Shown piece after piece: positions 7,499-41,128 of a stretch of 42,651 nucleotides of DNA. Source of the DNA: a virus. The first letter of the stretch is position 1. Each line of letters starts with the position of its first letter. The stretch is taken from positions 1-42,651 of the IMG/VR virus record IMGVR_UViG_3300010392_001236. One strand, written 5' to 3'. The position numbers and the translations under genes were made by a program. The notes under the pieces were generated by a model. The model had not been told where the DNA came from, did no database searches, and saw nothing but the letters and a program-made list of their open reading frames with translations.

Positions 7499-7631
7499 TG
7501 AGATACGTGTTCTCCTCCACGTACTAGACATTAGTGTCCCTATTATCTCCCCTCTCCTCCCACCAGAAGATGCTATTACCTTGGAAAAGTTACAACAACG
7601 AATGAAGGGAGAATCGGATGACTCCAATTGA
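7482..7631 (+). CDS. Small hypothetical protein (49 aa)
   Basis: TTG 7482 follows GAGAGG with a 6-nt spacer, and the frame closes at TGA 7629-7631. It overlaps both neighbours (16 and 14 nt). The product MRLTPDEIRVLLHVLD... contains LTPDEIRVLL, a common helix start of small phage HTH or helical proteins, then a Pro-rich turn and LEKLQQRMKGE. It fills an otherwise empty gap. Confidence 0.5.
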   Translation: MRLTPDEIRVLLHVLDISVPIISPLLPPEDAITLEKLQQRMKGESDDSN

Positions 7632-9639
7632 GTTTCATACTAACTTCATACCTACCTATAAGAAGAAGTACCATGAAGGTAAGGAACCAGAAGAGTATCA
7701 TATCTATGATTGTCCTTTCTCAGACTGTGAGGGTAGTCAACACCTCTACTTCTTTCCTGCAACTACAACTTGGGACTGTAAGAAGTGTGGCAAGAAGGGC
7801 AACGTACATATCTTTAATCAACATATCTATAATGATGTTTGTAACAGAAACATTGGAGGATTAAAAGATATATGGAAACTCCCTCATAAGTGCTTTGAAT
7901 CTATTCGCTATAACCCTCTCAATGAATGCTGGGTACTACCTACTTTCAGAGAAGGAAAGTTAAACAATCTCTACAAGATTACAGTTGTACGAGAAGAGAA
8001 GCACGGAGAGTGGAGGGATGCAGTTAGAGTATTTGGTACACCTAGTCTAGGAACAACTCTCTTTGACTGGCCTACCCCCGAAGCAGAAGAGGTATGGGTA
8101 ACAGAGGGACAGAAGGATAAATTAGCAGCAGAAGCAATCATTGGTAGTAGGGAGATTGTAGCAGTAGGTTGTCCTGGTGCCTCTTCCTTTCAAGCTAGAT
8201 GGGCTATGGCATTCCAAGATAAGAATGTAGTCCTTCTCTTTGACAATGATAAACCCGGTAAGGAGGGAATGCAGAAGGTACTTAAAGCCCTGCAATCCTC
8301 CCCATATAAACCTAAGGCTGTTAAGAGGATTGAATGGCCAGAGAATACAGAGGATGGCTATGATCTCTATGACCTCTACCAAGACCTTAAGGCTAGATCG
8401 TACTCACATGTATCATCTCTCCTCCAGGAAGTAGTGCAGGAAGACCTAACAAAGGTATCTTCTGAGTCTGTAGTAGCAGATGACTCTTGTGATACCTATG
8501 AAAAGGTACTCACTGTTATGAGATCAGTGTACTATGTTCCTCCTGACATGGAAACTGTATTAGCTATTGTACTTGCCTCTATCTACTCAACTAACTTAGA
8601 AGGTGAACAAGTATGGTTTAAGATCATTGGTAGACCAGGGTGTGGTAAGTCAACAATTAGTAAAGCAGTATCTGCCTCTGAGTTTACAAAGTTACTTAGT
8701 ACGTTTACAGGGCTGTTCTCTGGGCACAAGGATAAGGAAGAATCAGATAACTCTCTCATCCCTGAGATTCAGAACAGAACTTTGATTGTAAAGGATGCTG
8801 ATGCTCTGCTACGTCAAGGTAACATTGAACAAATCATGAGTGAACTTCGTGACTTCTATGATAAGGATAGTTCAGTTCGTTACCGACACGGACTTGCCTT
8901 TGAGTATCAGAATGTACGATCTACATTTATCCTAATGGGTACTCAAACTCTCCGTAGAGCTGACCAGAGTTTCTTGGGTGAACGTCTACTATCAATTGAA
9001 ATGGATGTCACTGACAAGGAAGAACAACTCATTAAGAAGAGGGTAGCAGAGAATGCTCTTAAACTAGCACTAAATAGACCTACTCCCACAACTAAAGAAG
9101 TAATGTCTAGTGTAAAGGGCTTCATTGGGCACTTAAAGGATAAGAGTGCAGATCACATACTTCTCTCTGATGATTACGTTGATATGATTATCCGTCTATG
9201 CTCTCTTGCTGCTAACATGAGAACTCAGGTAGATAGAGACTTAAGAGGTAAACTCCTTTCACCAGCAATGTCAGAAGTACCCTCTAGACTCATTGGTCAA
9301 CTAATCAATACTACTATCTCCCTCTGCATGGTGTATGGTGTAGACTCTCCCTCCCAGAAAGTAGAGCAAATAGTCAAGAAGGTTATTCGAGATACCATTA
9401 ATCCTAGAAGTCATAGGTTCCTTATCTGTGATGTAATTCTAGAATCACCTGGTGTTACTGCACCTCAACTAGAAGAGAAGACTGGATTATCTAGAGGAAC
9501 AATTAAGGATGAACTAAGGGATCTTGTAGAACTCAAGTTTGTCAGAGCAGTAAAGGTAATGCAAGACAATGGGTTAAAGACCTATGGTCTTTGGCTAGAA
9601 GAATGTATTAGGAAGGAATTCTCGGAGATAATCGAATGA
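7618..9639 (+). CDS. Primase-helicase (zinc ribbon, TOPRIM, P-loop ATPase)
   Basis: A 673-residue multidomain replication protein. The N-terminal CHC2-like zinc ribbon is CPFSDCEG...WDCKKCGKKG (residues ~32-62). TOPRIM follows with WVTEGQKDKLAAEA (Glu, ~162) and VVLLFDNDKPGKEG (Asp pair). A P-loop GRPGCGKST sits near residue 337, a Walker B-like RTLIVKDAD near 385 and an arginine-rich segment after it. The last ~100 residues form a winged helix (GVTAPQLEEKTGLSRGTIKDELRDL). It probably primes and unwinds DNA for the polymerase encoded just upstream. The ATPase looks closer to AAA+/SF3 helicases than to DnaB. Confidence 0.85.
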   Translation: MTPIEFHTNFIPTYKKKYHEGKEPEEYHIYDCPFSDCEGSQHLYFFPATTTWDCKKCGKKGNVHIFNQHIYNDVCNRNIGGLKDIWKLPHKCFESIRYNPLNECWVLPTFREGKLNNLYKITVVREEKHGEWRDAVRVFGTPSLGTTLFDWPTPEAEEVWVTEGQKDKLAAEAIIGSREIVAVGCPGASSFQARWAMAFQDKNVVLLFDNDKPGKEGMQKVLKALQSSPYKPKAVKRIEWPENTEDGYDLYDLYQDLKARSYSHVSSLLQEVVQEDLTKVSSESVVADDSCDTYEKVLTVMRSVYYVPPDMETVLAIVLASIYSTNLEGEQVWFKIIGRPGCGKSTISKAVSASEFTKLLSTFTGLFSGHKDKEESDNSLIPEIQNRTLIVKDADALLRQGNIEQIMSELRDFYDKDSSVRYRHGLAFEYQNVRSTFILMGTQTLRRADQSFLGERLLSIEMDVTDKEEQLIKKRVAENALKLALNRPTPTTKEVMSSVKGFIGHLKDKSADHILLSDDYVDMIIRLCSLAANMRTQVDRDLRGKLLSPAMSEVPSRLIGQLINTTISLCMVYGVDSPSQKVEQIVKKVIRDTINPRSHRFLICDVILESPGVTAPQLEEKTGLSRGTIKDELRDLVELKFVRAVKVMQDNGLKTYGLWLEECIRKEFSEIIE

Positions 9640-13178: not shown

Positions 13179-14111
13179 GTGGCAAAACGAACTCCCCCCG
13201 TTTATACTGTACCACCAGATTTAGTCCTAGAGCCAGATGTGTATGCTGCGGCTCCTTCAAATCTTTGGCATCTACCAAAGGACATCTGGTCGAGTATTTG
13301 GGCCAAAGTATCTGGTCGAACAATAAAGATTGCAATTCTTGATACAGGAATGAACTCCCATGAGGATCTTCCTGATCCAGTAAGTGCAAAGTCATTCATA
13401 TCAGGTCAGTCTTGGCGTGACGGAAATGGTCACGGAACTCACTGTGCTGGTACCGCCCTTGGTCGGAACGGTATTGGTGTAGCCCCAGGGGCAGAACTAA
13501 TCGTTGGAAAGGTGCTATCCAACGGTGGCTCTGGTTCTTCCTCTGGTATCGCGGCAGGAATTCGTTGGGCTGTAGACGAAGGTGCTGATGTAATCAGCAT
13601 GAGTCTCGGGGGAGGGAGTAGCTATGGTCCAACGAATTCTGCCATTGATTACGCTTGGACTAAAGGATGTATCGTAAACGCTGCTGCTGGTAACTCAGGC
13701 TACAATGGTAGAAATACTATTGGTTGGCCTTCGAAGTACAAGTCATGTATCTGTAACGGAGCTACAAGAAGTGATGGTTCAATTGCAAACTTTTCAAGTG
13801 GTGGACGAGAACTTGACTGGGCTACCCCAGGTCAAGCAATTATCTCTGCATCCTACAGAGGTGGCTATGCAACAATGTCTGGCACAAGCATGGCTACTCC
13901 TTTTGGGAGTGGGCTTCTTGCTCTCATTGTAGAACTTATGAGAAGGGAAGGACAAGCTGAATGGACAGCTAAAGAATCCTTTAATGCCTTCATTGCAAAG
14001 TTTACAGAAGATCGAGGAACTCCAGGTCATGATGTAAGATTTGGACATGGTGTCCCACTCTACACCGAAATCGTACACGCACTAAACAACGAGAACATTC
14101 AATGGGCATAA
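13179..14111 (+). CDS. Subtilisin-like serine protease (S8)
   Basis: All subtilase landmarks are present: Asp in AILDTG (~residue 55), His in GHGTHCAG (~87), oxyanion Asn in AAAGNSG, and Ser in GTSMATP (~236). The start is GTG 13179 with only a weak upstream purine run. There is no signal peptide and no long propeptide, so either it works in the cytoplasm or virion, or it leaves after lysis. Subtilases are uncommon in phages. Candidate roles are virion maturation, degradation of host protein layers, or lysis. The neighbours (secreted and membrane proteins) favour an envelope role, which is inference. Confidence 0.92.
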   Translation: MAKRTPPVYTVPPDLVLEPDVYAAAPSNLWHLPKDIWSSIWAKVSGRTIKIAILDTGMNSHEDLPDPVSAKSFISGQSWRDGNGHGTHCAGTALGRNGIGVAPGAELIVGKVLSNGGSGSSSGIAAGIRWAVDEGADVISMSLGGGSSYGPTNSAIDYAWTKGCIVNAAAGNSGYNGRNTIGWPSKYKSCICNGATRSDGSIANFSSGGRELDWATPGQAIISASYRGGYATMSGTSMATPFGSGLLALIVELMRREGQAEWTAKESFNAFIAKFTEDRGTPGHDVRFGHGVPLYTEIVHALNNENIQWA

Positions 14112-17798: not shown

Positions 17799-18925
17799 CC
17801 ACTTACTACGTTGATCCGAACTCGGGAAGCAACGGCAACGCTGGTACGTCATTCGGCGCGGCATGGGCAACGACTCAGTTTGCAGCGAACAATACCGCCG
17901 CCGACGACGAAGTGAGATTGTGCCAAACGGCGGTTGAATCCGTGGCGACACAGATTGATTTTGACACAACATCCGGTACGAAAGGGTCGGACATTCGCTT
18001 TATCTCGTACAGTGCGGACGGAACAACTCAGCAGGACGGCTACACGCTGCAAGCGTCGGCCAGCATCGCATCACTGGCATTCCTGTCAGTTGACTACTTG
18101 CGAATGGTCGGCGTGATCTTTGACGGCAATAGCAACGCGACAGATGGTCTGACATCGGCTGGCGGTGCAGCAAGAGACGGGCTGCGGTTCTTGCGATGTT
18201 CATTCATCAACTGCCTCGCCGATGGAGTTTCGCCAGCATGGAGCGTTGGTGAAGTTTCTCGACTGCCGCGATTTCTCGACTCCATCTTTGGCAACAATGG
18301 TCAGCACGGCATTGGTTCACCAGCCGCCAGCGACGGTTCGGTTTACGCATTAGGCTGCGTATTCCACGACAATGTCAGCGACGGAATTTACATGGACTCG
18401 CAGAATTCTTTTATCGGCCGATGCAGGTTTATTGACAACGGAGGCAATGGAATCACCATCCACCTTCGCGGCGACTACACCATCGTGCAGCAGTCCACGT
18501 TTTTTGGCAACACTGGCGATGCCATCAATCTTGAAGCTGGCGGAAATGATGACTGCGTTGCCGAGGGTTGCAGTTTCCGATCGAACGGCGGGTATGGCAT
18601 TAACTTTCCCTCGGGCGGATTCAATCTTTCCTACATGGACTTCAACCATTTTTCAAACAACACGCTAGGGGCTGTTGAGGATGGCGGTGCCGTGTCCGAG
18701 GCGACACTCCTGGCAACCGCAAAGTACGGCACCAGCAATATCAACGGTGACCCACTGTTTGTATCGGAGACAGACGGATCAGAGGATTTAACACCTGGAA
18801 CAGGTTCACCACTGATAGGTGCAGGGCTAAGCGGTGGCGTCATTGGTGCATTGCCACCGGCAGTGAGTAGTGGTGGCGGAGGACTTTTAACACATCCGGG
18901 AATGTCCGGTGGAATGCGAGGATAA
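17795..18925 (+). CDS. Right-handed beta-helix protein
   Basis: Starts MTTYYVDPNSGSNGNAGTSF, a common opening of right-handed beta-helix (pectate lyase-like) proteins. It continues with strand repeats (YLRMVGVIFDGNSNA, GLRFLRCSFINC, SVYALGCVFHDNVSDGIYM, NSFIGRCRFIDNGGNGITIH, YTIVQQSTFFGNTGDAI, DCVAEGCSFRSNGGYGI). It ends in a Gly-rich tail. It overlaps the previous gene by ATGA. It is probably a second fibre or spike subunit. Planctomycete-like sequence style is an impression, not a search result. Confidence 0.75.
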   Translation: MTTYYVDPNSGSNGNAGTSFGAAWATTQFAANNTAADDEVRLCQTAVESVATQIDFDTTSGTKGSDIRFISYSADGTTQQDGYTLQASASIASLAFLSVDYLRMVGVIFDGNSNATDGLTSAGGAARDGLRFLRCSFINCLADGVSPAWSVGEVSRLPRFLDSIFGNNGQHGIGSPAASDGSVYALGCVFHDNVSDGIYMDSQNSFIGRCRFIDNGGNGITIHLRGDYTIVQQSTFFGNTGDAINLEAGGNDDCVAEGCSFRSNGGYGINFPSGGFNLSYMDFNHFSNNTLGAVEDGGAVSEATLLATAKYGTSNINGDPLFVSETDGSEDLTPGTGSPLIGAGLSGGVIGALPPAVSSGGGGLLTHPGMSGGMRG

Positions 18926-21356: not shown

Positions 21357-21553
21357 CACTTCAAACAATAACACTCACCAATGAGTACTCACCCATTCTC
21401 TCCCCAGAAAAACCAGAAGCCCTGGTAGTTTGCAGTAAGAAGAAGAGTGATACCCGAGTTATCTTAGAGTGTAGTTTAGATAAGAAGACTTGGGTATCCC
21501 TGTCCATTGGTAATGAAAATCCCCTCTTCCTATCAGAGCGGTTATTTTACTGA
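21353..21553 (+). CDS. Hypothetical protein ending at a suspicious TGA
   Basis: A 66-residue beta-rich product (TITLTNEYSPIL...ALVVCSKKKSDTRVILECSLDKKTWVSLSIG) that stops at TGA 21551-21553. The same frame stays open for 72 further codons (see next entry), so the mature product may be longer. It carries a copy of the dispersed motif at 21395-21410. Confidence 0.6.
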   Translation: MTLQTITLTNEYSPILSPEKPEALVVCSKKKSDTRVILECSLDKKTWVSLSIGNENPLFLSERLFY

Positions 21554-21772
21554 GCATTCCTTAGAGAAGGTAAGAAACAAGTAGAACCAGTCATCCTTCA
21601 ATTTTATGGCAAGACAGAGAATGAGCAAGTTAAGAAAGTTGAGGAACTGGCTAAGGAACCCGAAACCCCTCAAGTTAAGAAACTCGATAAACAACCAGTG
21701 GCCGACAGAGTACAGTTACGACGTCCTCCCTCCAGAGACAATCAGAGCGGCAGCAGCTCTACCTCACGTTAA
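21554..21772 (+). other. In-frame extension past TGA (possible readthrough)
   Basis: After TGA 21551 the same frame continues AFLREGKKQVEPVILQFYGK..., with VKKVEELAKEPETPQVKKL further on, until TAA 21770-21772. It contains no ATG, GTG or TTG that could start it (a GTG lies only near its end). Its codon choice (GAG, GAA, AAG, GTT) looks like neighbouring genes, whereas the portal frame across the same bases gives an R/K/L-rich shadow-like string. CCTT-AGAG-AAGG can form a small hairpin 6 nt after the TGA. Either the TGA is read through or recoded, or it is a sequencing error or recent mutation. Confidence 0.45.
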
Positions 21773-37687: not shown

Positions 37688-37760
37688 AAAAACAATCTGA
37701 CTGATCTTTACGCGGGGAACAAACAAGTCAAAAAACAATGTGACTTCTCCCTACGCGGGG
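37687..37760 (+). repeat. Direct repeat pair (CAAAAACAAT...TACGCGGGG)
   Basis: A unit of a CAAAAACAATSTGAC-like box (37687 and 37729) followed by TACGCGGGG (37709 and 37752) occurs twice, 42-43 bp apart. Both boxes recur at 40196-40232 beyond the ParB-like gene. Confidence 0.65.
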
Positions 37761-38568: not shown

Positions 38569-40089
38569 ATGTCATACGACATTTACAGCAACCACGCAGA
38601 CGTTATCGAAGTAACCCGTTCTACCTACGAATCGGCTACCTTATCCGAATCTGACCGTAAATGGGCAGATGAGATGATTGAATCCGGTAGCCGGGTCAAG
38701 TATTATGACTTGTCCCCAGAGCAATGCGAGATTCTGAACGAATGGACGATGGAAAACTACGTCCAGGGAGTAGCCAAGTTTACATTCAACTATGCAAAGG
38801 ATCGCGTCGGTCTAGTTGTTTGCAGCAAAGAAGGAGCACCCGTCCTAGACCCTGATACCGGGGAACCAAAGACGGATGAGGATGGTAACCCGGTAACAAC
38901 AACAATCATCCCAGACCATGACTTCGGATGTACGGTTAAGGCGGAAGGATTGACGGACACAAACGGCACCACGATTCCTAGTGGCTACCAGTACTTCAAA
39001 GTTATCAATCAGTCCGGTAACCGTCCCCGAACTGAATCCAACTTCAAGGGCTTGATGAATCGCCTCCTCAAGTGGATGCTGAACGGGGAGCAACTCATTA
39101 AGGACGCAACCGGTCAAGGGATTACAGAGCAACACCGCTGCATTGCCCGTTGTCTACTGTCTCTTATGGGTGTTAAGTCACCCGGTAGCAAGGAAGCGGA
39201 AATTATCTCCCCTGATTGGGGACCGTTGGTATTCTTCACAGATGGTATCCACCCGGTAGCGGCTATCACTGCCGACACTGGCAAGAGCAATTCGGGCAAG
39301 GATATTTTTGCATCGGACCCACAACTACTCCCCGTTGACTACCTGCAAACTCCAGAGTCTATTACCGGTCACACCCCAGAACCCGTGTACCTTACCGATC
39401 GAGTAGGGGAACGGACCAAAGCCCTTGGCAAGTGTGAATCGGCGGTCAAAATGGTGGTAGCCCGAATGGGGGGCAAGAATGTCAACGCTAACATCGGGAA
39501 CGCCAACGAGAGTACAGAACTAGCCCACTACGCTATCAGTAACTATCTACCCGATATGGACATTCTAGCGGGTTACTGCCACGTCTTGGCGTGTCCACGA
39601 TTCGAAAAGTCTACGGTAGCAGGAAAGACCACTAAGGTACAACCGGTTAGCCCAAACGATATGGCAGCAGCACTAGCCCTATACTCTATGCGAGACGTTG
39701 AACCGGTTGACGTGTTCGGAACGGGACGACGTGGCACCCGCCCCCTAGACGATGTTGACCCGATTCGAATCGACTCCCAACAATTCCTCCCCCTCCTTGA
39801 GGACATTTTCAACTCATCGGGAACGGAAGCTAGCCCGGTCAAGGATTGGTTGCAAGCCCGTGCGAGTGGCCGATACAGTACGGCTAAGGCTGATAAGTTT
39901 GCCCAACTGTTGCGGATGGTAGTTGCGTACTTCTCCCCAGAAGAAGAAGTCACCGCCGATCTACTTGTTAAGAAGAATTGGACACCCAACAACGGAACCA
40001 GCAAGGGATTCTACACCGTGGGGGGTGCCGATCTTGGGGCCGTACCTAAGAAAACGAAAAAGGATACAAGTGAGGAGGATGAAGCGTAA
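38569..40089 (+). CDS. ParB-like/DGQHR-type protein
   Basis: 506 residues; AGGA lies about 9 nt before ATG 38569. The central segment LNGEQLIKDATGQGITEQHRCIARCLLSLMG resembles the NGE-x-I-x-x-x-x-G-x-x-x-DGQHR segment of phage ParB-like proteins. The following VFFTDGIHPVAAITADTGKSNSGKDIFAS resembles their G-D-x-x-A-F-x-x-I-D-T-G-x-x-R-x-x-x-D segment. The canonical DGQHR is altered to TEQHR. N-terminal DPDTGEPKTDEDGNP is a beta-turn-rich insertion and the C-terminal tail is acidic. It lies between two repeat-rich intergenic regions that share sequence modules, so it may bind them. Function inferred. Confidence 0.55.
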   Translation: MSYDIYSNHADVIEVTRSTYESATLSESDRKWADEMIESGSRVKYYDLSPEQCEILNEWTMENYVQGVAKFTFNYAKDRVGLVVCSKEGAPVLDPDTGEPKTDEDGNPVTTTIIPDHDFGCTVKAEGLTDTNGTTIPSGYQYFKVINQSGNRPRTESNFKGLMNRLLKWMLNGEQLIKDATGQGITEQHRCIARCLLSLMGVKSPGSKEAEIISPDWGPLVFFTDGIHPVAAITADTGKSNSGKDIFASDPQLLPVDYLQTPESITGHTPEPVYLTDRVGERTKALGKCESAVKMVVARMGGKNVNANIGNANESTELAHYAISNYLPDMDILAGYCHVLACPRFEKSTVAGKTTKVQPVSPNDMAAALALYSMRDVEPVDVFGTGRRGTRPLDDVDPIRIDSQQFLPLLEDIFNSSGTEASPVKDWLQARASGRYSTAKADKFAQLLRMVVAYFSPEEEVTADLLVKKNWTPNNGTSKGFYTVGGADLGAVPKKTKKDTSEEDEA

Positions 40090-40202
40090 CCCCCTAGCCC
40101 CCTATTCATTCCTTCCCAGAAAACCCCCTAGCCCTAGTGGCTAGCGGGGTTATTTTCGTTGATAAAAACAACTTGAAAAACTATCTAGGGCACCCTACGC
40201 GG

Positions 40203-40232
40203 GAAAAACAATCTAGCGAAAAACAATCTAGC
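40203..40232 (+). repeat. Tandem 15-bp repeat GAAAAACAATCTAGC x2
   Basis: Perfect adjacent copies at 40203-40217 and 40218-40232, with degenerate relatives just upstream (40161-40188). They follow TACGCGGG (40196-40203). Both elements also occur at 37687-37760 upstream of the ParB-like gene. Confidence 0.8.
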
Positions 40233-40243
40233 CCGCCCCTATA

Positions 40244-40313
40244 CACGACAAGCAAGTCACGACACACAATTCACGACAAGGGAAGCACGAATTGTAAAGC
40301 ACGACTAATTTGT
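40244..40313 (+). repeat. 14-bp iteron array (CACGAC x5)
   Basis: CACGAC starts at 40244, 40258, 40272 and 40300, with CACGAA at 40286. That is five units at an exact 14-bp spacing. Units 1 and 3 continue AAG, unit 2 continues ACA, and an inverted GTCGT closes the array at 40312-40316. Exact phasing with drift between boxes is what iterons of replication origins or partition centromeres look like. The adjacent ParB-like gene makes either role plausible. Confidence 0.75.
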
Positions 40314-40478
40314 CGTACTTCTCTGGGAGGGGGAACAAACTACCCTCCCCCCGTCCTATCGTCCTAGTACACTAGTGGGCTAGTACACCCTGCAACTATC
40401 ATGCCAATACGTCATTCCTTCCCAGAAAAGCCCAATATAGTTAATGGCGTTTATTCTCCCCTAGTCTATCTTACCTAT

Positions 40479-40575
40479 CTTCCTATTGAGAATGCCGCCA
40501 TGTGGGGGATGCCAAATTTACGAGGAATAACACTATTTTGGGTTTTCTTGAGATTTTCTATTCTCAATAAGGAAG
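40479..40575 (+). repeat. Long inverted repeat (15 bp arms)
   Basis: CTTCCTATTGAGAAT (40479-40493) pairs with ATTCTCAATAAGGAAG (40560-40575) with a single bulged base, enclosing 66 nt. ATTGAGAAT also recurs near 42.49 kb. Could be a transcript structure or a site with dyad symmetry. Confidence 0.6.
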
Positions 40576-40705
40576 CTTACCCCCCGAACTAAAATCTCGA
40601 TCTACTCGGCAATTTACGGGGTGAAACCCTTAAACCCCTCTGGTGGGGCAATTTCCTAAGGGTAGACGGTCTTTATTTGAACGCGACACAAACAAGGAAA
40701 CGACA

Positions 40706-41128
40706 ATGACACGCTATCCCCGCCAAACACGATACACCTTAGTTATCCGTCTTCGAAACGGAAAGGATAAGACCCTTTCCACGACGTACCCGACACGTCA
40801 ACTCGCATCCGATGCAGCTAACCGCCTGATCGATCAGAATGGGTGGATTGTGCGAGTAGTTCCCCCTACCCCTAAACGTCAATCGACTACCTCCAAGATT
40901 ACCCGCAAAGCATACTATGCTATCGTTCACTACTTCGCATCTAACCTTGCTGATAATCCGGGTCTGATTGTCCGATACAAGGGCAAGGAATACGGGGTTG
41001 TAGGTGCAAGTCAGGAACGACTGTATACGCTGGAGGGCGTGGTGCTCTTTCCGTATCACTGCACAATCAGAAAGGGTACACTGGCAAGTTGTGAAGCCGA
41101 TATGGGTCTTGTGTTCACCTCTAACTGA
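40706..41128 (+). CDS. Hypothetical protein (140 aa)
   Basis: ATG 40706 is preceded by AAGGAAA with proper spacing; the upstream open codons are discarded. N-terminal RYTLVIRLRNGKDKTLSTTYPTRQLASDAANRLIDQNGWIVRVV resembles small beta-alpha domains that recur in the next genes (42028: VLTIRMKDGSTDELSRGEAIHAIDEYL). The C-terminal half is a separate beta domain (GLIVRYKGKEYGVVGASQERLYTLEGVVLFPYHCTIR). No known family. Confidence 0.65.
   Translation: MTRYPRQTRYTLVIRLRNGKDKTLSTTYPTRQLASDAANRLIDQNGWIVRVVPPTPKRQSTTSKITRKAYYAIVHYFASNLADNPGLIVRYKGKEYGVVGASQERLYTLEGVVLFPYHCTIRKGTLASCEADMGLVFTSN

Follow-up and report, generated by a model that had tools for sequence, protein, structure and literature searches.

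Gene content and organization of the control region

The window analysed here is the whole of the IMG/VR record IMGVR_UViG_3300010392_001236, with a length of 42,651 bp and no terminal repeats. It is probably incomplete or cut at its ends, because the span from the ParB-like gene to ThyX is unbroken for 18 kb in the relative G027, as compared with about 4 kb across the two contig ends of the window. At the extreme right contig end (42585-42619), GAGGT recurs every 8 bp in four copies, which is a second short-period repeat in addition to the array described below. Elsewhere, the window has the gene for a subtilase-family protease (13179-14111; Peptidase_S8, E=9e-43), a gene for a likely CAP/SCP-like domain protein (1231-1616, from a reading of its sequence only) and, between 600 and 970, tRNA-like debris (GTGGCGAAATAGGTAGCCGC; TTGTCGTAT...GGTTCAAATCC...ATACGACAA), in which ARAGORN finds no tRNA.

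A gap of 616 bp without a credible gene (40090-40705) separates the gene for a 'ParB-like' QHR-family protein of 506 aa (38569-40089, + strand) from a small gene of 140 aa (40706-41128, + strand), whose ATG at 40706 is the next plausible start. On the + strand, the gap includes a terminator-like GC-rich hairpin followed by TTATTTT (about 40121-40156), located between the end of the 38569 gene and the array, three AAAAAC(A/T)ATCT elements at 40176, 40204, and 40219 (40176-40229), the last two within the tandem 15-mers GAAAAACAATCTAGC (40203-40232), and the phased array of five CACGAC/CACGAA units (40244-40316). The RNA of the gap folds better than shuffled sequences (z -4.7); an RNA reading of the gap was considered and set aside, as the folding excess apparently comes mainly from the terminator hairpin and there is no Rfam match for the gap. 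Downstream of the array, a 60-bp stretch (40514-40573) has the lowest stability of the right arm, though it reaches only the 98th percentile genome-wide, and is a candidate unwinding element; a second, partial 14-bp pair, CACGAC-N8-CACGTC (40780-40799, + strand), lies within the first part of the following gene. Such a pair occurred no more than 500 bp from the array in 0.6% of the simulations. The candidate unwinding stretch sits between the array and this pair, a layout that was spotted after the fact.

The first of the three elements in the gap is part of a bipartite element, AAAAAC(A/T)AT(C/G)T-N9/10-TACGCGGG, which has three copies in the window (37688, 37731, and 40176), only in the gaps flanking the ParB-like gene. 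Two of them, with the form AAAAACAATST-N10-TACGCGGG, are in the upstream gap (37688-37759, + strand, comprising 37688-37716 and 37731-37759) and the third is at 40176-40203, and two additional AAAAACAATCT copies abut the array. Six 11-mers are common to the two gaps, a number reached in 1 of 500 simulations. This element of about 30 bp (AAAAACAATCT ... ACGYG), found in tandem in the control gaps, may be promoter-like or binding-site-like.

No Pfam, NCBIfam or meaningful PDB match was obtained for the 38569 protein, and its AlphaFold model has a pLDDT of 30; PDB 'Pizza' matches to the ParB-like profile were rejected as artefacts of designed repeats. Its assignment comes from the homologue in the relative G001 (25% identity over 173 aa; phrog_5931), through which it joins the 'ParB-like nuclease domain protein' of Mycobacterium prophage prophiGD43A-1, as well as an unnamed phiAH14a gene adjoining 'ParBc-like nuclease' and replication genes. 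As in other members of this phage 'ParB-like nuclease' or QHR family (prophiGD43A-1 gp11, phiAH14a p43, phrog_5931), the positions NR, GE, QHR (or NHR), and D-G-[KR] are present in the 38569 protein and in its G001 and G027 homologues; however, the 38569 protein has long extensions in its 506 aa, with no recognised DNA-binding domain and no partition partner. The name 'ParB-like' given in the initial annotation was right at the family level, that of the QHR proteins with the prophiGD43A-1 'ParB-like nuclease domain', and the case shows how a phage gene so labelled may wrongly suggest partition. The protein is the neighbour of the array in the window and not its demonstrated binder.

Sequence and phasing of the array

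The units of the array start at 40244, 40258, 40272, 40286, and 40300, in exact 14-bp steps, and read CACGACAAGCAAGT, CACGACACACAATT, CACGACAAGGGAAG, CACGAATTGTAAAG, and, as the last, CACGACTAATTT. With GTCGT at 40312-40316, the array is closed by the dyad ACGAC-TAATTT-GTCGT (ACGAC-N6-GTCGT; 40301-40316). The five units and their closing inverted GTCGT, reported in the initial annotation together with a gene-free stretch of about 600 bp and two tandem 15-bp repeats near the array, could be read directly, and the stretch and the repeats correspond to the 616-bp gap and the GAAAAACAATCTAGC copies given above. In an unbiased scan of the 42.65-kb window for periods of 7 to 40, this array was the sole case of a 5-mer with five copies at a fixed period, and among 200 sequences simulated for the 5.35-kb right arm with a Markov model, none had an array of at least four copies.

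The 6-bp cores have 56 of 60 pairwise position matches (93% identity), whereas the 8-bp spacers have 28 of 80 (35%), with about 31% expected from the spacer composition. A core that is kept while the spacers are free indicates binding sites at a fixed spacing and not a decaying tandem duplication, since decay hits all positions alike; the copies are not alike over the whole unit, as those of a simple tandem repeat are. The array is not a coding repeat either, because its 14-bp period is no codon multiple. The unit sequence with its 14-bp spacing had no match in the phage records searched, and the array is an iteron-like direct-repeat array, with a sequence that is new to the databases searched.

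Conservation of the array in related phages

The terminase, portal, and head protease had no tblastn match in INPHARED, the control region of the window had no DNA match in the same database, and single-protein searches and the P0001 alignment found no relatives. A scan of IMG/VR with the exact pattern returned 10 matches, all of them unrelated simple tandem repeats, and the matches of a pattern scan of bacterial genomes were overwhelmingly near-identical tandem repeats. L010/G007 has a homologous terminase, but the repeat there is a tandem of the 7-bp CACGACG. A search with the terminase and a weak homologue combined led to the relative G001, and an alignment of the tape-measure proteins to G027.

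G001 (IMGVR_UViG_3300020043_005951) is colinear with the window, with identities of 35% for the terminase, 30% for the polymerase, 35% for the primase, 37% for the portal, and 41% for the tape measure. The 38569 gene has a homologue in G001, and no CACGA array is found in the G001 contig, which stops 7 bp past this homologue. In the gap upstream of its ParB-like gene, G001 has a 13-bp tandem AATGACATGCCAG. A possible diverged analogue of the bipartite element, AAAAGATCAAATTTCC...TCGCATA, is present at 49829, 51117, and 51158 of the reversed contig, also with a tandem pair. Positions 1-100 of the reversed contig, its left end, repeat an internal stretch (about 1450-1500) in inverted orientation, probably through an assembly snap-back.

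In G027 (IMGVR_UViG_3300042298_002501, 40,679 bp), with identities of 49% for the tape measure, 45% for the portal, and 55% for ThyX, the array region is intact, and the gene order in the reversed contig is tail genes, AAAAACAATCT elements, array, small gene, 40706 homologue (37% over 70 aa), and ParB-like gene. The upstream gap has five AAAAACAATCT elements (18235-18384), and four of the five are followed, at a similar distance, by CACGTGTGT or a related word. The array, at about 18474-18643, has 12 units in exact 14-bp register, which read TGCTTTTCAATTAC / CGACAACCATGTCG / CGTCCCCCAATTCA / eight TGCTTTTCAATTCA / CGATAACTTTGTCG TA, and it is likewise closed by CACGA..TA..TTTGTCGTA (18626-18643). 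Directly after the ParB-like gene (21547-21697), the reversed contig also has a 17-bp array, GATTTTTCTTATAGTTA x8.8, which is the least stable DNA of the contig.

The two arrays were compared by alignment in the 14-bp register. In the homologous register, the window units occupy 40246-40315 (5 x 14 bp) and read CGACAAGCAAGTCA / CGACACACAATTCA / CGACAAGGGAAGCA / CGAATTGTAAAGCA / CGACTAATTTGTCG TA, from CGACAA (40246) to TTGTCG (40310), and this bracket CGACAA...TTGTCG is identical in both phages. The first two homologous units match at 11 of 14 positions each and the last unit with TA at 13 of 16, for a total of 35/44; the maximum for the same two anchors, with their placement freely chosen in simulated gaps, was 32/44 in 300 runs. 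Thus, the spacing and the ends are conserved, and the unit number (5 versus 12) and the interior sequence are not. As judged from this alignment, the array is conserved between the window and G027, which also have in common the AAAAACAATCT elements upstream and the 40706-family gene downstream of it. The presence of the same element in a distant relative makes it very probable that the array is a genuine control site, most likely one for the start of replication or for gene switching, and a pattern first spotted by eye thereby becomes a cis-element shared by uncultured phages that are only distantly related (best proteins about 45-55% identical).

Proposed role as a replication origin

As read from the two sequences, the array has a fixed phase, a core that is kept against free spacers, and boundaries and neighbouring elements that are conserved in a relative. 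It would be a lineage-conserved protein-binding site in the main non-coding control region of the phage, for which we infer the cooperative binding of one protein. The reading that is tentatively favoured here is that the units are replication-origin iterons, with the phage's Toprim primase/helicase (7618-9639, + strand) as the putative initiator. Direct repeats at a fixed spacing in non-coding DNA, as found here, and their conservation in a relative are features of iteron origins. The primase/helicase has a Zn ribbon, a Toprim primase, and a P-loop ATPase (helicase) in one chain, as the P4 alpha type does, with a weak C-terminal winged-helix match (MarR_2 at 606-644, E=0.004, below the Pfam cut-off). 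Its AF2 model is of low confidence (pLDDT 39), and a fold search re-found the Toprim primase domain only. When compared with G001, the C-terminal end is 28% identical and the helicase core 45%; a less conserved C-terminal end is as expected if the iterons of each phage differ.

In the proposed mechanism, several copies of the phage's own primase/helicase would occupy neighbouring sites 14 bp apart, with about four turns of the helix to every three units, as far as the inverted half-site that closes the array. Recognition of the units would fall to the winged-helix-like segment at the C-terminus, as with P4 alpha, and the bound initiator would help to melt the AT-rich stretch near 40.51 kb.

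Like the sites of plasmid iteron origins, those of the window are direct, phased and cooperative-looking, with a conserved core; however, in plasmids the iterons usually have a greater length (about 17-22 bp) and adjoin the rep gene, and the rep-like gene of the window is distant from the array. The P4 replicon, in which the alpha protein joins a Toprim primase to a winged helix that binds the origin repeats, has in common with the window a phage-encoded Toprim primase/helicase and an array of short direct repeats in non-coding DNA (PMC4234260); the C-terminal winged helix of alpha has only a weakly matched, candidate counterpart in the window, which belongs to a 42-kb tailed phage and not to a satellite. 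In the origins of E. coli satellite islands (PICI), two iteron sets flank an AT-rich region (PMC6092414), which resembles the order of array, AT-rich stretch, and second repeat pair in the window, whereas in the window the second set consists of only one imperfect pair, within a gene.

Some observations count against the origin reading. Even with the contig ends joined, some 10 kb lie between the array and the candidate initiator, the primase segment is missing from the contig of G027, G001, a relative with the primase, shows no such array (its contig ending right after the ParB-like gene), and the second 14-bp pair lies in coding sequence. The initial annotation had suggested origin iterons or a centromere, to be sought through conservation in relatives and a GC-skew signal near 40.2 kb. 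The iteron or cis-site part of this proposal is supported by the homologous array of G027, with its exact 14-bp register and preserved boundaries, and the centromere part is not, given the results on ParA, ParB_N, and gene placement in G027 described below. The skew signal is absent, with no extremum at 40.2 kb and a cumulative peak at 33.7 kb. The presence of the array had also been considered surprising in a lytic-looking phage, a weak point, since it is normal for lytic phages to have initiator iterons. With its 70 bp, the array is a defined target on which to test how replication starts or the early switch is set in a lineage with almost no database relatives.

Alternative explanations

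The main rival, which is somewhat doubtful and yet has to be taken seriously, is a direct-repeat operator, in which a regulator would bind the array cooperatively, switch the gap promoters (AAAAACAATCT..ACGYG), and control the 40706 operon. Its location between the terminator-like hairpin and the next operon, with promoter-like bipartite elements just upstream in both the window and G027, is consistent with an operator, but about 390 bp separate the array from the next start codon and an excess of sigma-70 promoters was not found. Similarly, a 40706-family gene accompanies the array in both phages, but the 12 units of G027 are many for an operator; and, while members of the ParB-like family adjoin repressor/Cro genes elsewhere, no regulator was identified by homology.

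It is unlikely, as a further reading, that the array, the AAAAACAATCT..ACGYG elements, and the QHR protein form one system, in which the QHR protein would be an array-binding switch coupling early transcription to replication. The QHR family adjoins repressor and replication genes in temperate phages, and if this reading were true, the little-characterised phage 'ParB-like nuclease' family would gain a DNA target.

A cosB- or pac-like packaging site, with the array bound by the terminase small subunit, is quite improbable. The large terminase has a gpA-type nuclease domain, and cosB sites are made up of short repeated boxes; however, 2.4 kb separate the array from the end of the contig, a small terminase could not be recognised, and the G027 region is unbroken for 18 kb past the ParB-like gene.

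A functionless tandem repeat produced by neutral slippage is already disfavoured and very improbable. CACGA-rich tandem repeats of 7 or 14 bp are common in bacterial genomes, and the middle units of G027 are perfect copies, but among 322 four-unit matches from loci fetched from bacterial genomes, the spacer identity was below 0.45 in none and between 0.45 and 0.6 in three, with 0.46 in the window. Furthermore, slippage neither keeps a core with randomised spacers nor conserves boundary units between phages.

Finally, there is scarcely any probability that the array is a partition centromere to which the 38569 ParB-like protein binds, despite the ParB-like gene adjoining the array in the window and the existence of direct-repeat centromeres, because no ParA ATPase (a search positive in all 14 control genomes) and no ParB N-terminal domain (PF02195, ParB_N; positive controls detected) were found in the window or G001, and the G027 gene is on the other side of the array, in swapped order and with small genes between, to which are added a QHR family that is not known for partition and the lack of an integrase or other sign of plasmid-like maintenance among the findings.

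A dispersed oriented motif

In addition to the array, the window has a dispersed, oriented motif, YYYCYYYCCAGAR (about TTCCTCCCCAGAAAG), with a ratio of 16:1 between the coding and the other strand, and of 11:0 in G001. The copies on the + strand of the window are at 1850, 6147, 9347, 14804, 21397, 21725, 23729, 28150, 33025, 36985, 37245, 39930, 40109, 40415, 41410, and 41783, and the one on the - strand is at 40333. Within the window genes, the motif was found 11 times versus 0.6 expected from synonymous shuffles, which is an 18-fold excess. It is nearly absent from G027 (1:0) and from other terminase relatives. Matrices trained on one phage and run on the other at an equal cut-off gave 22:2 and 19:1 by strand. 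The motif is conserved between the window and G001, two divergent phages, and may be a Chi-like or processing-signal-like element.
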